From Lysobacter sp. yr284 (GTDB lineage Bacteria > Pseudomonadota > Gammaproteobacteria > Xanthomonadales > Xanthomonadaceae): a stretch of 64,000 nucleotides of DNA. Positions 37,659 through 43,604 of this stretch are shown here, in pieces (within the stretch, counting starts at the first letter, position 1; each line of letters begins with the position of its first letter). The notes beneath the pieces are model-generated. The model saw only the letters and a program-made list of their open reading frames with translations. It had not been told where the DNA came from and did no database searches. The stretch is from contig NZ_FNPT01000006.1 in the NCBI RefSeq assembly GCF_900107375.1, forward strand, positions 124,001-188,000, given 5' to 3'. The position numbers were made by a program, and so were the translations under genes.

Positions 37659-38552
37659 TCAGAACGCGTAGAGCCACTGCGAGAGCGCCTGCAGGAAATA
37701 ATCCGGTGGCTGGTGGTCGCGCAGCCCGCCGCCGCCGGAATACTGGCCGCCGGCGTACAGGGTGAAGCGCACGCCGGTCTTGCAGCCGCGGTAGACGCGG
37801 GTTTCGCCGCTGCGGTCGTAGTCGCGCGAACACTGCTGGCGCGCGGTCCAGAACGCGTCGTGTTCCTCGCCGAACAGCCCGTCCGGGCTGGCGTCGCCGA
37901 AGTGGTCGTCGTCGCGGCCGAAGAAGGTCCACACCGCCGGCATGCCGGTGCAGTCGCCATCGCTGGTCGGCGAACCGAACCAGTACGGCCGGTTCGCCGC
38001 CACCGGCGCGATCGCGCGGAAGTGCGCGCCCAGGTAGCAACCGACCACCGCGGCCATGTCGCCGCCCCAGGAATGGCCGGTGGCGAAGACGCGCTCGGTG
38101 TCGATCGAATAGTCGCGCTCGGCCTGGGCCAGCAGTTCCTCGGCGAAGCGGATGTCGTGCCAGCCGTCGTAAGGCCGGGCCTTGGGGCCCAGCGCCCAGC
38201 CGGCGACATCGCCCCAGGCGTAGGCCTGGTCGGGATAGACGAATACGGTGTCGTGCATTCGCGGCTCCAGGCCGACGACCTGCGGCGGCCGCCAGCCCGC
38301 GCCGAACCATTCGTGCATCTCGCGGCCGCGGGTGTCGGTGCCGGCGAACACCATGACCAGCCGGTAGCGCTTGCTGCGGTCGTAGTTCGCCGGCAGCGCG
38401 ACGTAGTAGCTGCGTTCGCCGCCGGCGGCATCGGAAAACACGTGCGAACGCTGGCCGCTGGGCGGCGCCGGGTCCGCGGCGGGCGCCGGGCCCGGCAGGC
38501 CGGCGACGGCGAGCAGCGCGAGGATCGCGGGGGCATGCAGGGGCGAGCGCAT
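37659..38552 (-). CDS. Secreted alpha/beta-hydrolase esterase (PHB depolymerase/feruloyl esterase type)
   Basis: A 297-residue exported protein with signal peptide (about residues 1-25). Domain: RSYYVALPANYDRSKRYRLVMVFAG (oxyanion-side strand), the nucleophile elbow GHSWGGDMA with the catalytic Ser, and a late VWTFFGRDDDHF segment supplying the acid. His is probably the one near GGLRDHQPPDYF. Eight or more Cys (GCYLG, DGDCTG, QQCSRD, RGCKTG) suggest disulphides, as in fungal-like feruloyl esterases and LpqC. Six perfect hexanucleotide repeats lie 29-64 bases before the start and could modulate expression. The longer upstream frame is the translated repeat and is not part of the protein. Confidence 0.82.
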   Translation of the reverse strand: MRSPLHAPAILALLAVAGLPGPAPAADPAPPSGQRSHVFSDAAGGERSYYVALPANYDRSKRYRLVMVFAGTDTRGREMHEWFGAGWRPPQVVGLEPRMHDTVFVYPDQAYAWGDVAGWALGPKARPYDGWHDIRFAEELLAQAERDYSIDTERVFATGHSWGGDMAAVVGCYLGAHFRAIAPVAANRPYWFGSPTSDGDCTGMPAVWTFFGRDDDHFGDASPDGLFGEEHDAFWTARQQCSRDYDRSGETRVYRGCKTGVRFTLYAGGQYSGGGGLRDHQPPDYFLQALSQWLYAF

Positions 38553-38580
38553 GGTTCGGCTTGTGGTGAGGAAAAATGCG

Positions 38581-38616
38581 GTGGCGGTGGCGGTGGCGGT
38601 GGCGGTGGCGGTGGCG
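38581..38616. repeat. Hexanucleotide microsatellite (GTGGCG)6
   Basis: Six perfect copies of GTGGCG, just upstream (29-64 bases) of the esterase start codon on the minus strand. Slippage here would change the promoter or leader length by multiples of six. Confidence 0.9.
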
Positions 38617-39024
38617 GGCGCGGGCGCGGCGCCGGGCGCGATCCGGCCGGCAGGCGGGAATCGGCGCGCGGCCGGGGGAATCGGCGTTCGCCCCCGTAGG
38701 CAGCCCCAGGCGGGGCGTACCCACCTTGGCGCAGCGCGCGCGGCGCGTCTTGAGCGGTTTGCGCGGCGGCGATGCGGATATGGGCCGAGTGCGGGTCCAG
38801 GCAGCGAATCCGCCGCGAGCGCGGCCGCAATCGCCGCAATCGCGCGCCCTCGGCGGTCTTGGCGCGGCCTGCGGCCAGCACATCGGCGCGGCCGCGTCAA
38901 TGCGCCGCGGCGGTTTACCCGGTTCAGCCGCGATGACCGCCGGCCCAACCGCGATGCCGCGCGAACCGCGGGCGGTCGCACCGCGCGTGTAAAATGACGA
39001 ACTTTTAGCCAGACCAGTTTGATA
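38617..39024. other. Divergent intergenic region before motor operon
   Basis: About 400 bases between the esterase and the motor operon. TAAAAT at 38990-38995 is a plausible -10 for the operon; no good -35 is visible. No gene supported. Confidence 0.4.
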
Positions 39025-39753
39025 GTGGAAGCTTCTCGACGGGCGGCGGTCCGTGGTCCGACCTTCATCCGCCTGCTCGCCCGCCTCGCCGATGCCGACG
39101 CCGCGCCCGATGCGCAACCGCTGTCGGACCGGCTCAGCCAATGGATCGAATGGACCCAGACCCTGGCGCTGTCGGCAGCGCTGGACGGTGCCCCCGCGGT
39201 TGCGGGTTTCGGCGCGGCCGGTACGGTCCAGGCCGAGGCGGACGAGTGCGCGCGGGTACGGCGGATGCTGGCCGCGGCCATCGACGGCGATCGCGCGTTC
39301 GCGCCGCCGCGCGCGGGCGCGGGCGCCGCTGCGGCGCGCTCCGCGGCCACGGTCGAGGACACCGGCGACTACCCGTTCTTCCGCCAGCGCTACCTGGCGC
39401 TGCAGCAGACCCTGGAAGCCGGCGCCGGCCGCCTGCGCGAGCGCTTGCGCGAGCGACTGACCGTGGCCTCGCCCGGACTGGCCCGGCTGGCCGCGCTGGA
39501 CGCGGTGATGGAACGCGCCCTGGGCCGGCGCGAACGCAGCCTGCTCGGCGCCGCGCCGGCGCTGCTGGGCCGACGCTTCGAACGCCTGCGCCAACGCGCG
39601 CAGGACGCCGCCGACGGCGGCGAACCCGACCGAGAGACCTGGCTGGCCCGCTTCCGCACCGACATGCGCGAGGCCTTGCACGCCGAACTGGATCTTCGAC
39701 TTCAACCTTCGCAGGGCCTGCTCGACGCCCTGCGCGCACGCGCAAACGACTGA
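39025..39753 (+). CDS. DUF3348 protein, first gene of envelope-motor operon
   Basis: About 242 residues from a GTG at 39025; a TTG at 39019 is an alternative and neither has a clear ribosome-binding site. It is soluble, with no signal peptide. The N-terminus (RGPTFIRLLARLADAD, then LSDRLSQWIEWTQTLALSAAL) and the middle (DYPFFRQRYLALQQTLEAGAGRLRERLRERL) are the parts I associate with DUF3348, a family found in beta- and gammaproteobacteria beside DUF802, OmpA and DUF2894 genes. Mostly helical and rich in Arg/Leu; it could be a cytoplasmic component binding the motor. It ends one base before the next start. No enzymatic motif. Confidence 0.82.
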   Translation: MEASRRAAVRGPTFIRLLARLADADAAPDAQPLSDRLSQWIEWTQTLALSAALDGAPAVAGFGAAGTVQAEADECARVRRMLAAAIDGDRAFAPPRAGAGAAAARSAATVEDTGDYPFFRQRYLALQQTLEAGAGRLRERLRERLTVASPGLARLAALDAVMERALGRRERSLLGAAPALLGRRFERLRQRAQDAADGGEPDRETWLARFRTDMREALHAELDLRLQPSQGLLDALRARAND

Positions 39754-39754
39754 C

Positions 39755-42223
39755 ATGCTCAACAAATCGCTTCACGCCGCCGTCTTCGTCGCCGGCCTCG
39801 TCCTCGTGGCCTGGGTCGGCGCCGGCACCCTGGGTTCGCATCCGCTGGCGCTGGCGGTACTGGCGCTGATCGCCGCTGGCTACCTCGCCGGCGGGCTGGA
39901 ACTGCGCCGTTATCGCCAGGCCACCGCGACGCTGCAGCGCGCGCTGGACGAGTTGCCCGCGCCGGCGGACCCAGCCGACGGCGACGACGGCCGGCTCGAT
40001 GGCTGGCTCGGCCGCCTGCATTGTTCGCTGCGCAGCGCGGTGCGCCTGCGCATCGAAGGCGAGCGCGCGCCGCTGCCGGCGCCGACGCTGACGCCGTACC
40101 TGGTCGGCCTGCTGGTGCTGCTGGGCATGCTCGGCACCCTGCTGGGCATGACCGTGACCCTGCGCGGCACCGGCCTGGCGCTGGAAAGCGCCAGCGACCT
40201 GCAGGCGATCCGCGCCGCGATCGCCGCGCCGGTCGCCGGCCTGGGCTTCGCCTTCGGCACCTCGATCGCCGGCATCGCCGCGTCGGCCATGCTCGGCCTG
40301 CTCGCGGCGCTGTGCCGGCGCGAGCGCGCCGCCGCCGTACAGCGCCTCGACGCCGCCGCGGCCGGCGCGCTGCGCACGCATTCGCGCGCCTACCGACACG
40401 AACGGCGCCGCGCGCAGGCCTTCGAACTGCTGCAGCGCCAGACCGAGACCATGCCCGCGCTGGTCGCGCAGTTGCAGTCGGCGATGGCCGCGCTGGAACG
40501 CCACAGCGACAGCGCGCACGAGCGCCAGCTCGAACGCCAGGACGCGTTCCACCAGCGCAGCGAAGCCGCGTACGCGCGCCTGGCCGAATCGTTCGAGCGC
40601 TCGCTCAAGGACAGCGTCGGCGAAGGCGCGCGCGCCGCGGGCGCGGCGCTGCAGCCGGTGGCGGACGCGACCATGGCCGCGCTCGCGCGCGAGGGCGCGG
40701 CGCTGCACGAACGCGTCGGCAGCGCGGTGCAGCAGCAGCTCGACGGCCTCGCGGCCGGATTCGCCGGCGCCGCGGGCGCGGCCGCCGAAGGCTGGAGCCG
40801 CGTCCTGGCCGACCACCGCGGCGGCAACGAAGCGCTGCTGCGCGAGCTGCGCGGCGCGCTGGAAGGATTCGCCGGCACCTTCGAGCGCGGCGCCGCCGGC
40901 TTGCTCAAGGACGTCTCCACGCAGTTGGAAGCCAGCCACGGCCGCAGCGCGCAGACCTGGGACGAGGCCCAGGCGCGCCAGGGCGATGCCAACCAGGCGC
41001 TGGCCGATCGCCACCAGCAAGCGCTGGGCGGCGCCGCGGCCGCGTTCGAACAACACGCCGCGGCGTTGGTGGCGGTGGTCGAGCGTTCCCACGCCGACCT
41101 GCAGGATGCGCTGCAATCGCGCGACCGCGAACGCCTATCGGCCTGGACCGAATCCTTCGGCGCGATGAGCGCTGCGCTGGGCGAGCGCTGGGAGCAGTCG
41201 CAGACGCTGACCGCGCAGCGCCAGCAGGACATTTGCGCGACCTTGGCGCGCACCGCCGACGAGATGTCGGCGCAGGCGCAGGCGCACGCGCGCGACACCG
41301 TGGCCGAGATCGAGCGCCTGGTCGACGCCGCCGCGCAAGCGCCCAAGGCCGCGGCCGGCGTGGTCGCCGGGTTCCAGACGCACGCGGCCGAACTGGTGGG
41401 CATCGTCCGCGACTCGCACGCGCAGCTGCACGCCGCGCTGGAATCGCGCGACCGCGAGCGCCTGGCGATGTGGACCGAGGCGTTCGGGGCGATGACCGCC
41501 GAACTCGGCCAGCGCTGGCAGCAGGCCGGCGAAGCGGTCGCCGGCCGCCAGCTGGAGGTCTGCGACACCCTCGCGCGCACCGCCCAGGAGGTCTCGGCGC
41601 AGAGCCAGGCCCAGTCCCGCGACACCATCGCCGAGATCTCGCGCCTGGTCGATGCCGCTGCGCAAGCGCCCAAGGCCGCCGCCGAAGTCGTCGCCGAACT
41701 GCGCCAGAAGCTGTCCGACAGCATGGTCCGCGACACCGCCATGCTGGAAGAACGCAACCGCCTGCTGGCGACGCTGGAAACCCTGCTCGACGCGGTCAAT
41801 CACGCCTCCGGCGAGCAGCGCGCCGCGGTCGATGCGCTGGTCGCGTCCTCGGCCGAACTGCTCGAACGCGCCGGCGCGCGCCTCAACGAACGCGTCGAAG
41901 CCGACGCCGGCAAGCTCGACGCCGCCGCCGCGCAACTCGGCGCCGGCGCGGTCGAGGTCGCCAGCCTCGGCGACGCCTTCGCCGCGCTGGTGCAGCAGTT
42001 CGGCGACACCCACGAGCGCCTGGCCGACCGCCTGCAGGGCGTGGAAGTCGCGCTGGACAAGTCGCTGGCGCGCAGCGACGAGCAACTGGCCTACTACGTC
42101 GCGCAGGCGCGCGAAGTGGTCGACCTCAGCGTGCTGAGCCAGAAGCAGATCATCGACGAACTGCAGCGCGTGGCCGACGGCCAGGCCGCGGCGCACGGCG
42201 GCCCCGGAGCGCAGGCGGCGTGA
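39755..42223 (+). CDS. DUF802 protein: MotA/TolQ/ExbB-like membrane core with long coiled-coil tail
   Basis: An 822-residue protein. Predicted membrane helices: about 8-26, 30-48, 113-134 and 160-187. The third contains LVLLGMLGTLLGM and the fourth AFGTSIAGIAASAMLGLL, matching the two conserved helices of MotA/TolQ/ExbB proton-channel subunits. From about 190 the chain is one long cytoplasmic helical tail with almost no Pro, like ZorA of the Zorya defence motor. The tail includes a 109-residue tandem duplication (residues 438-546 and 547-655) and ends with VVDLSVLSQKQIIDELQRV. The next gene supplies a MotB/OmpA-like partner whose start overlaps this stop (GTGA). Likely forms a 5:2 stator-type ion-driven motor. 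Confidence 0.85.
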   Translation: MLNKSLHAAVFVAGLVLVAWVGAGTLGSHPLALAVLALIAAGYLAGGLELRRYRQATATLQRALDELPAPADPADGDDGRLDGWLGRLHCSLRSAVRLRIEGERAPLPAPTLTPYLVGLLVLLGMLGTLLGMTVTLRGTGLALESASDLQAIRAAIAAPVAGLGFAFGTSIAGIAASAMLGLLAALCRRERAAAVQRLDAAAAGALRTHSRAYRHERRRAQAFELLQRQTETMPALVAQLQSAMAALERHSDSAHERQLERQDAFHQRSEAAYARLAESFERSLKDSVGEGARAAGAALQPVADATMAALAREGAALHERVGSAVQQQLDGLAAGFAGAAGAAAEGWSRVLADHRGGNEALLRELRGALEGFAGTFERGAAGLLKDVSTQLEASHGRSAQTWDEAQARQGDANQALADRHQQALGGAAAAFEQHAAALVAVVERSHADLQDALQSRDRERLSAWTESFGAMSAALGERWEQSQTLTAQRQQDICATLARTADEMSAQAQAHARDTVAEIERLVDAAAQAPKAAAGVVAGFQTHAAELVGIVRDSHAQLHAALESRDRERLAMWTEAFGAMTAELGQRWQQAGEAVAGRQLEVCDTLARTAQEVSAQSQAQSRDTIAEISRLVDAAAQAPKAAAEVVAELRQKLSDSMVRDTAMLEERNRLLATLETLLDAVNHASGEQRAAVDALVASSAELLERAGARLNERVEADAGKLDAAAAQLGAGAVEVASLGDAFAALVQQFGDTHERLADRLQGVEVALDKSLARSDEQLAYYVAQAREVVDLSVLSQKQIIDELQRVADGQAAAHGGPGAQAA
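41066..41719 (+). repeat. Tandem 327-base internal duplication in DUF802 tail
   Basis: Two copies of a 109-codon unit starting at 41066 and 41393. They share SHADLQDALQSRDRERL versus SHAQLHAALESRDRERL, WTE-FGAM, TLARTA and RLVDAAAQAPKAAA, with the last few codons diverging. Confidence 0.8.
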
Positions 42224-42879
42224 GCGCGGAGATCGAAGACGACGCCGGCATCGACTCCGGCGCGCCGGTATGGGCCGCCTTCGGCGACCTGATGTCGGTG
42301 CTGCTGGGCGTGTTCGTGCTGATCCTGGTCGGGGTGATCGGCGCGCAGATGCAGCTGTCCAGCCGCCTCGACGAGGAAGTGAAGCAGCGCAAGATCGAAG
42401 CCCAGCGCCGCCAGACCCTGGAGCGCGCGCTGGCCGCGCCGCTGGCGAGCGGGCGGGTGACCCTGGTCGACGGCCGCATCGGCATCAGCGGCAACGTGCT
42501 GTTCGCGCTGAACTCCGATCAGTTGCAGCCGCAGGGGCGCGAACTGCTCAAGACCCTGGCCGGCCCGCTGACCGAGTACCTGCGCTCGCGCGACGAGATC
42601 CTGATGGTCAGCGGCTTCACCGACGACCGCCTGGTGCGCGAGAGCAACCGCCAGTTCGCCGACAACTGGGAGCTGTCGGCGCAGCGTTCGCTGACCGTGA
42701 CCCGCGCGCTGATCGCCGCGGGCGTGCCGCAGACGGCGGTGTTCGCCGCCGCGTTCGGCGCCCAGCAGCCGGTGGATTCCAACGCCGAGGAAGCCGGGCG
42801 TGCGCGCAACCGGCGGGTGGAGATCGCGCCGATGCCGCGTCCGACCCAGGCCGCCGCGCCGCCGCGCGGGTCGCGATGA
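42220..42879 (+). CDS. MotB/ZorB-like OmpA-family motor subunit
   Basis: A 219-residue protein started by GTG overlapping the previous stop. A short cytoplasmic N-terminus leads to one membrane helix (about 17-41): WAAFGDLMSVLLGVFVLILVG. Asp23 in GDLMS sits where MotB, ExbD and ZorB keep their ion-binding aspartate. A coiled region follows, then a peptidoglycan-binding OmpA domain (about 95-205): NVLFALNSDQL, VSGFTDDR, and GRARNRRVEI, the last being the diagnostic C-terminal motif. It should anchor the stator to the wall while the helix conducts ions with the DUF802 protein. The stop overlaps the next start (ATGA). Confidence 0.88.
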   Translation: MSAEIEDDAGIDSGAPVWAAFGDLMSVLLGVFVLILVGVIGAQMQLSSRLDEEVKQRKIEAQRRQTLERALAAPLASGRVTLVDGRIGISGNVLFALNSDQLQPQGRELLKTLAGPLTEYLRSRDEILMVSGFTDDRLVRESNRQFADNWELSAQRSLTVTRALIAAGVPQTAVFAAAFGAQQPVDSNAEEAGRARNRRVEIAPMPRPTQAAAPPRGSR

Positions 42880-43604
42880 CTCAGGCCCGTGCGAACGCGG
42901 GCGGGCCCGATCCGCGGGCCACGCTGGAAGCCTGGCGCGCGCAGGGCGAAGACCGCCGCGATCGCGCCGGTTTCGCCCGCATCGACGCGCTGGAGCGCCG
43001 CGCCGCGGCGCAGGACGGCGAACTGCGGCGGGTGCTGGATGCGCGGGTGCGCGAGATGATGATCGCGTACGCCGGCGAACTGGAGCGCAGCGCGGTGCGG
43101 GCGCGCGAGGCGGCCGTTGGCAAGGCGGACGCTGCCACCGCGGCCTCGCCCGCCGAGGCCGTCGCGCGCAAGGGCGGCAAGCGCAAGCCGCGGGCGGGCG
43201 CGGAAACCGCGCCGGCGCCGGCGCCGACCTTGGCCGAACTGACCCAGCGCCTGGAGGCGTTGGTGGCGACGCGCGAGGCGGCTTCCGCCGATGCGCCGCG
43301 GGCCGCGTTCCCGCAACTGGCCGCGCTCGACGAATTCCGCATGCGCTTCTCGCGCCTGCGCATGGACCGGCAGCTGCGCGAGTCGCTGGAACCGTCGTCC
43401 ACCGACGCCGGCCCGCTCAATTCCGGCCGGCTCGTGCACCGCGCGCTGAGCACCATGCAGGCGCTGGCGCCGGAGTACCTGCAGCAGTTCATGGCTTATG
43501 TCGATGCGCTGGCGTGGATGGAACGGCTCGGCGGCGTGGCCGAGGCCGATGAACCGGCCGTGGCCGCGGGCGGCGGCAAGCGCGGGCGCAAGCGCCGCGA
43601 ATAG
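42876..43604 (+). CDS. DUF2894 protein, last gene of motor operon
   Basis: A 242-residue soluble protein. Two helical parts: about residues 10-75 (ATLEAWRAQGEDRRDRAGFARIDALERRAAAQ, in pieces) and about 150-225 (LDEFRMRFSRLRMDRQLRESLEPSSTDAGPLNSGRLVHRALSTMQALAPEYLQQFMAYVDAL, in pieces), joined by a basic Ala/Pro-rich linker (KGGKRKPRAGAE). The tail is Lys/Arg-rich. The C-terminal block matches what I recall of DUF2894. No catalytic motif. The position at the end of a fully overlapping operon suggests a regulatory or structural partner of the motor. It may contact nucleic acid through its basic segments, but that is a guess. Confidence 0.82.
   Translation: MTQARANAGGPDPRATLEAWRAQGEDRRDRAGFARIDALERRAAAQDGELRRVLDARVREMMIAYAGELERSAVRAREAAVGKADAATAASPAEAVARKGGKRKPRAGAETAPAPAPTLAELTQRLEALVATREAASADAPRAAFPQLAALDEFRMRFSRLRMDRQLRESLEPSSTDAGPLNSGRLVHRALSTMQALAPEYLQQFMAYVDALAWMERLGGVAEADEPAVAAGGGKRGRKRRE

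Follow-up and report, generated by a model that had tools for sequence, protein, structure and literature searches.

A complete Zorya type III operon

The window analysed here—64,000 nucleotides of the 6.25 Mb genome of the soil bacterium Lysobacter sp. yr284—contains what is almost certainly a complete Zorya type III operon (DUF3348, ZorA3, ZorB3, and DUF2894), an already named anti-phage system, and the long cytoplasmic rod of its ZorA belongs to a family in which tandemly duplicated blocks lie close to whole turns of one helix. The four open frames are full length, run in the same direction (+) from 39025 to 43604, and are tightly packed, with one base between the DUF3348 and ZorA genes followed by a GTGA and then an ATGA overlap (Table 1). 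PADLOC type III profiles recognise all four proteins, and the zorAB pair lies between the DUF3348 and DUF2894 genes (PADLOC, Pfam), the two partners by which type III was defined when it was named in 2021 (the PADLOC paper, PMC8565338) and again, in restated form, in a 2025 structure paper (PMC11890865). The motor pair itself consists of a ZorA of the MotA/TolQ/ExbB class with a long cytoplasmic extension and a ZorB with a conserved transmembrane Asp and an OmpA-like peptidoglycan-binding domain. By ZorB, the nearest named locus is that of Lysobacter enzymogenes, at 89% identity. Shortly before the operon, at 38551–38640, lies a simple repeat that one frame reads as VAVAVA..., beside a putative esterase gene on the opposite strand.

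A sequence-only reading of this DNA had described the same four genes, and the frames, families, and junctions were all recovered by Pfam and a check of the sequence. It had also likened the pair to ZorAB and read it as a stator-type motor, which agrees with the strength of the ZorA3 and ZorB3 profile matches (Table 1) and with the detection by sequence of type I ZorA and ZorB (PDB 8vvn; see below). Its statement that ZorC, ZorD, and ZorE are lacking holds for the operon and the flanking proteins (six by PADLOC, ten by Pfam), such that neither ZorC with ZorD nor ZorE, the partners that would indicate type I or II, stands beside ZorAB at this locus. The step from that absence to a distinct system was wrong, because DUF3348 and DUF2894 are the defining type III partners according to PMC8565338 and PMC11890865. 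Naming the operon as a known system thus settles the main question of the earlier reading: the claim of novelty fails and the claim of a motor stands.

A separate envelope motor unrelated to Zorya, which that reading had proposed, could still appeal to the missing ZorC, ZorD, and ZorE and to the weakness with which ZorA3 matches type I/II ZorA profiles (best 1.8e-11, PADLOC), but it is a highly improbable account of four proteins that all match named type III profiles, in a type defined by exactly these two partners (PMC8565338), and we rejected it at the level of naming on the PADLOC matches. Labels for the partners are swapped between sources—DUF3348 is ZorF in the 2021 paper, whereas PADLOC-DB 2.0 (PDLC00652–PDLC00658) has DUF3348 as ZorG3 and DUF2894 as ZorF3—and we follow the 2021 paper, with DUF3348 as ZorF and DUF2894 as ZorG.

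Table 1. Operon genes and sequence features, in positions of the window
Feature	Position	Strand	Evidence
DUF3348 protein (ZorF of the 2021 paper)	39025..39753	+	242 aa, GTG start; PF11828 2.1e-72; PADLOC PDLC00658 3.8e-79
ZorA3	39755..42223	+	822 aa; PADLOC PDLC00650 E=0, 1145.8 bits; PF05650 DUF802 2.4e-21
ZorA conserved motor part (~residues 110-190; T128, T135, T139, T169, S170, S177)	40082..40324	+	alignment
DUF802 repeat 1, ZorA residues 332-384	40748..40906	+	PF05650 match
DUF802 repeat 2, ZorA residues 387-439, 55 residues after the first	40913..41071	+	PF05650 match
ZorA tail module copy 1, 109 residues (422-530)	41018..41344	+	68/109 residues identical to copy 2
ZorA tail module copy 2, 109 residues (531-639)	41345..41671	+	230/327 bases identical to copy 1
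ZorA conserved tail tip, residues 771-803	42065..42163	+	21/33 columns identical in at least 71/76 sequences
ZorB3	42220..42879	+	219 aa; PADLOC PDLC00651 8.9e-113; PF00691 3.1e-17
Asp23 codon of ZorB, expected ion-carrying residue	42286..42288	+	kept in 81/81
OmpA-like domain of ZorB, residues 94-198	42499..42813	+	PF00691 3.1e-17
DUF2894 protein (ZorG of the 2021 paper)	42876..43604	+	242 aa; PF11445 2.7e-48; PADLOC PDLC00652 1e-59

A conserved motor core and wall anchor

Residues expected along the ion path and at the cell wall are almost completely fixed across the family. T128, T135, T169, S170, and S177 of ZorA are identical in all 76 sequences and T139 in 75; in ZorB, D148, N149, L152, S153, and R156 of the OmpA-like domain are identical in 81/81. 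ZorB3 has one transmembrane helix in addition to this domain, and its only strongly hydrophobic segment spans residues 15–48; Asp23, which the earlier reading placed at the start of the sole helix, lies near the start of this segment and is identical in every one of the 81 sequences. Pfam gave no match between PF01618 and ZorA3. In searches against the sequences of solved structures, type I ZorA (8vvn_C) matches ZorA3 over residues 116–198 (6.5e-4) and type I ZorB (8vvn) matches ZorB3 at 1.8e-5, while the best-scoring solved relative of ZorB3 is a putative MotB (3khn, 1.3e-16). A ZorA5:ZorB2 complex is likely for type III by analogy. The ZorAB motors of types I and II have this 5:2 stoichiometry and cannot defend without the ZorB Asp, peptidoglycan binding, or the ZorA tail (according to PMC11890865); in type III, the Asp, the five OmpA-like residues, and five of the six ZorA core residues are invariant, and the relatives in 8vvn are found by sequence.

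The MotA/MotB-like core and the 3khn match might equally suggest a flagellar or gliding stator, motility being one of the roles floated by the sequence-only reading. This is hardly tenable: DUF3348 and DUF2894 mark the operon as Zorya III, five other MotA/ExbB-family genes in the genome are available for other motors, and a profile search for the FliG C-domain, positive in 4 of 14 control genomes, returned no match in this genome, on which ground a flagellar role is unlikely and the flagellar stator was rejected.

Tandem blocks in the ZorA rod nearly keep helix phase

The same reading had noted a long tail on the MotA/TolQ/ExbB-like protein, and we find one of ~617 residues if it starts near residue 205 (an estimate); as one continuous helix, it would measure about 93 nm. 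The window's tail contains two DUF802 repeats and a 109-residue tandem duplication (Table 1; self-match score 375 at offset 109), and each copy of the latter has one proline, Pro530 and Pro639, which may kink the helix. Across 76 sequences, counted from the start that aligns with the window's, ZorA is between 663 and 1155 residues long; 698, 785, 872, and 959 recur and 1046 was seen once, each 87 residues above the last. The self-matches described next trace this variation to tail segments duplicated in tandem, and the length of the block differs with lineage.

Taking the strongest self-match offset of each tail with a BLOSUM62 score of at least 200 as a duplication, we found one in 54/76 proteins, at 12 distinct offsets (22, 29, 40, 51, 55, 58, 62, 80, 87, 98, 109, and 149), weaker self-matches being left out of these counts. 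Eighteen same-genus proteins, taken afterwards, added one more offset, 73, for a total of 64 of 92 distinct sequences (two exact repeats left out) with a strong tandem duplication and 13 block lengths, although not every block represents a separate event and several of the offsets were seen in a single protein. Copies of the duplicated stretches are 33–91% identical. The best common helix period for the 13 offsets is 3.628 residues per turn (R=0.950), a fit reached by none of 20000 random sets of 13 integers from the same range and, at score thresholds of 150, 200, 300, and 400, by 0/5000. At this period, each offset lies within -0.02 to +0.16 turn of a whole number of turns, with 55 (0.16) and 73 (0.12) farthest off. 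Without 58 and 87, which are multiples of 29, the other ten offsets give R=0.963 (0/20000 random sets), whereas the heptad value of 3.5 gives R=0.19 for the 12 offsets. Detection of offsets depends on sequence similarity, and the hydrophobic phase itself favours such matches somewhat; the offsets most open to this bias are 22 in the Paraburkholderia ginsengiterrae protein (L071; 34% identity) and 55 in L075 (40%). The former tail also shows overlapping offsets of 22, 33, 44, and 55, all multiples of 11. ZorA length differences as such show no phase-locking.

Hydrophobicity independently gives a similar period. Over the 76 proteins, tail hydrophobic power peaks at 3.650 residues (10th–90th percentile 3.636–3.656; 3.656 on the Kyte-Doolittle scale), with a value of 11.4 at the peak versus 1.6 at 3.5, and shuffled tails reach a peak power of 1.9 versus 10.6 in 14 unduplicated proteins of 698 residues. 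In these 14 proteins, the period declines along the rod, from 3.70 near the membrane to 3.66 over the DUF802 region, 3.64 at mid-tail, and 3.57–3.58 towards the tip. The blocks follow the same trend: the farther a block lies from the membrane, the fewer residues per turn its length implies (Spearman -0.87 for 13 offsets at thresholds of 150 and 200, -0.67 for 12 at 300, and -0.75 for 9 at 400). For comparison, five type I ZorA proteins have tail periods of 3.55–3.64, depending on protein and hydrophobicity scale. One type I ZorA (L115) has a 138-residue tail duplication (score 379), so type III is not alone in duplicating tail blocks.

Together, we would say that these patterns describe a largely continuous, non-heptad helix whose phase is under selection and whose length is free. 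Duplications that keep phase are expected in principle for continuous coiled-coil helices, and we therefore read the whole-turn blocks as a rule of rod structure, which does not prove rotation. Models in which the tail is a fixed-reach or floppy tether must nonetheless explain why 13 block lengths all nearly keep helix phase. In the accessible text of the literature searched, we did not see whole-turn tail blocks described for Zorya III.

Candidate docking sites and the partner proteins

The tip of the tail (Table 1) is kept although ZorA length varies so widely. Regional identity, expressed as means over the 14 proteins of 698 residues in their own frame, is highest in the motor core (residues 91–180; 0.93–0.98) and in a mid-rod block (511–570; 0.93–0.96), lower towards the tip (601–690; 0.81–0.88), and lowest in the shaft between (331–480; 0.64–0.77). 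ZorF and ZorG may dock at the tip or at the mid-rod block, both of which this conservation marks as candidate sites; docking could be mid-rod, since that block is more conserved than the tip.

The partners themselves offer few clues. The predicted model of ZorF is all-helical and of good confidence (pLDDT 85.1, pTM 0.80), and that of ZorG is helical and less well modelled (pLDDT 76.4, pTM 0.42). Pfam assigns each only to its own DUF family, NCBIfam gives no match, and neither source returns a nuclease family; searches by sequence and by structure found neither a relative of solved structure nor a clear fold match. In Zorya III, we recognised no counterpart of the nuclease-type partner known from types I and II. 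The 2021 authors proposed ZorF and ZorG as regulators of ZorAB (PMC8565338), while the nuclease recruitment described for types I and II (PMC11890865) expects an effector. If the nuclease model holds for type III, that effector would be either hidden in ZorF/ZorG or supplied by the host, because the two proteins lack a nuclease family or clear structural match.

Distribution, inheritance, and genomic context

Gene order is common to 80 named loci, all of which have a ZorA frame (complete or partial) and DUF2894, with ZorB present in every one by construction. DUF3348 occurs in 75/80, and the five loci without it lie at a contig edge, the contig ending no more than 466 bases ahead of the ZorA frame. 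In one locus (L096; LRMT01000087.1, Cupriavidus sp. UYMMa02A), DUF3348 is a fragment: the best frames for it and ZorA are short (167 and 332 aa) beside full-length ZorB and DUF2894, and the operon looks fragmentary. All four genes were found in 19/19 same-genus stretches, two of which repeat named loci (L133 = L033, L126 = L037). Another of the named loci, on a contig titled Bacillus subtilis SK7B5 (L061; JAHREJ010000010.1), has a Zorya III operon placed among Stenotrophomonas in the ZorA-ZorB tree, which probably reflects contamination or mislabelling.

Within some genera, the operon approaches core status, a spread that we consider worth following alongside the whole-turn blocks. It could indicate a core envelope motor that does housekeeping work, either under stress to the wall or envelope or by positioning something in the cytoplasm, with protection against phages as a by-product or as one of several outputs. 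DUF3348 was found in 20/20 genomes of the window's genus (this genome included), 35/35 of a second genus in the same family, and 13/17 of a third, the latter two genera having been picked for their DUF2894 matches, and always as one match per genome where present. By comparison, an abortive-infection family occurs in only 6 genomes of the 35-genome genus, and of 369 genomes in the class, 4 match one ZorA1 profile (1e-30). No relative of ZorB3 was found in phage records at 1e-10. Among 72,556 plasmid records, 27 contain one (1e-20), from Burkholderiales and a few other beta-proteobacteria; 20 are predicted to be non-mobilizable and 7 mobilizable. The sizes of the 20 listed replicons range from 0.59 to 3.2 Mb, all above 580 kb. 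The ZorA-ZorB tree (76 sequences, midpoint root) likewise keeps Xanthomonadales on one side (support 1.0) and Burkholderiales on the other (0.56), and in Burkholderia cenocepacia, which has a predicted Zorya III, no predicted defence gene altered fitness in a CRISPRi phage screen (one phage, one host).

Against this, a cloned type III operon from Stenotrophomonas nitritireducens lowers plaquing in E. coli BL21-AI (PMC8565338), from which phage defence by the present copy may be supposed by analogy. Core presence is also compatible with defence, because persistent defence systems are described, among them the highly conserved type III Zorya of Ralstonia solanacearum (according to PMC13064858); moreover, HSDR_N, a broad restriction family, is in 32/35 genomes of the 35-genome genus. 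At the level of the family, the operon is dispensable, since DUF2894 occurs in only 44/149 genomes (17/54 genera). The DUF2894 profile also exceeded its cut-off in a Corynebacterium glutamicum control genome, outside the orders seen for the operon. Nor is position fixed, because flanks differ between most same-genus loci: several genes recur in 4/19 stretches and two more stretches share only an upstream pair. Elsewhere, 10 Xanthomonas loci have one upstream cluster of neighbour genes in common, and 17 loci of Paraburkholderia and Burkholderia have another; of the 45 largest neighbour clusters, those spanning both orders are mixed in side or strand, and none holds the window. We read these patterns as suggesting mostly vertical inheritance without a fixed position, and regard the housekeeping explanation as unlikely, although it deserves more weight than any other alternative to defence.

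The sequence-only reading had called for a neighbourhood survey for defence islands. Over ~34.2–49.4 kb, flanking proteins (six by PADLOC, ten by Pfam) are metabolic or regulatory, and a defence-island setting was rejected on this basis. The sole PADLOC match among the six, a methyltransferase against mad2 (2.3e-13), looks like a general methyltransferase match.

A model for Zorya III and comparison with known motors

We consider it probable that the operon encodes a ZorAB motor tied to the wall, triggered by damage, and signalling through its rod to ZorF and ZorG. The published model for types I and II starts from wall damage by a phage, followed by ZorB engagement, ion flow, turning of ZorA and its tail, and recruitment of a nuclease (PMC11890865). 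Carried over to type III, five ZorA and two ZorB would form an ion-driven motor in the inner membrane, with the OmpA-like domain of ZorB as its anchor in the peptidoglycan. When an incoming phage damages the envelope, ion flow would open and ZorA would turn, and the helical ZorA rod (~90 nm if one continuous helix) would relay the signal to the cytoplasm. There its conserved tip or mid-rod block would engage ZorF and ZorG, which would stand in for ZorC/ZorD or ZorE as regulators or effectors. The PADLOC type III matches, the invariant Asp23, OmpA-like, and ZorA hydroxyl residues, the conserved tip, the whole-turn blocks, and the 3.65 period all favour this model, as do the E. coli defence by a relative (PMC8565338) and the 5:2 motors of types I and II (PMC11890865). 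Counting against it are the lack of any family beyond DUFs for ZorF and ZorG, flanks that are not a defence island, and the null CRISPRi screen; tip docking in particular must contend with the better conserved block at 511–570.

The rod data also give a handle on how Zorya III works. More tentatively, and as a possibility short of probable, the ZorA rod may act as a phase-locked drive shaft: a pentameric, non-heptad helix with a twist running from ~3.70 at the membrane to 3.57 at the tip, to which blocks are added in whole turns such that the azimuthal face, and hence torque or rotation angle, would be delivered unchanged to a conserved end read by ZorF/ZorG. Such a shaft would span ~70–140 nm if one continuous helix and would belong to a core motor in at least two genera.

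Flagellar MotA/MotB shares with this system the proposed 5:2 stator core, a MotB-like single helix, and a peptidoglycan-binding domain, but works with a FliG rotor, whose C-domain is absent from this genome, whereas the present system has a long cytoplasmic tail and two extra partners. Zorya types I (ZorABCD) and II (ZorABE) are closer, with the same ZorA/ZorB core, ion-path Asp, OmpA-like wall-binding domain, and long ZorA tail; they differ in having ZorC and ZorD or ZorE, none of which lies beside the present ZorAB, and in component sizes that PMC11890865 describes as well conserved within each family, in contrast to the 663–1155 residues of type III ZorA here. From published Zorya type III (as presented in PMC8565338), the operon differs not at all in gene content—the same four families in a compact operon—and the present copy is set apart by an 822-residue ZorA with a 109-residue tail duplication.
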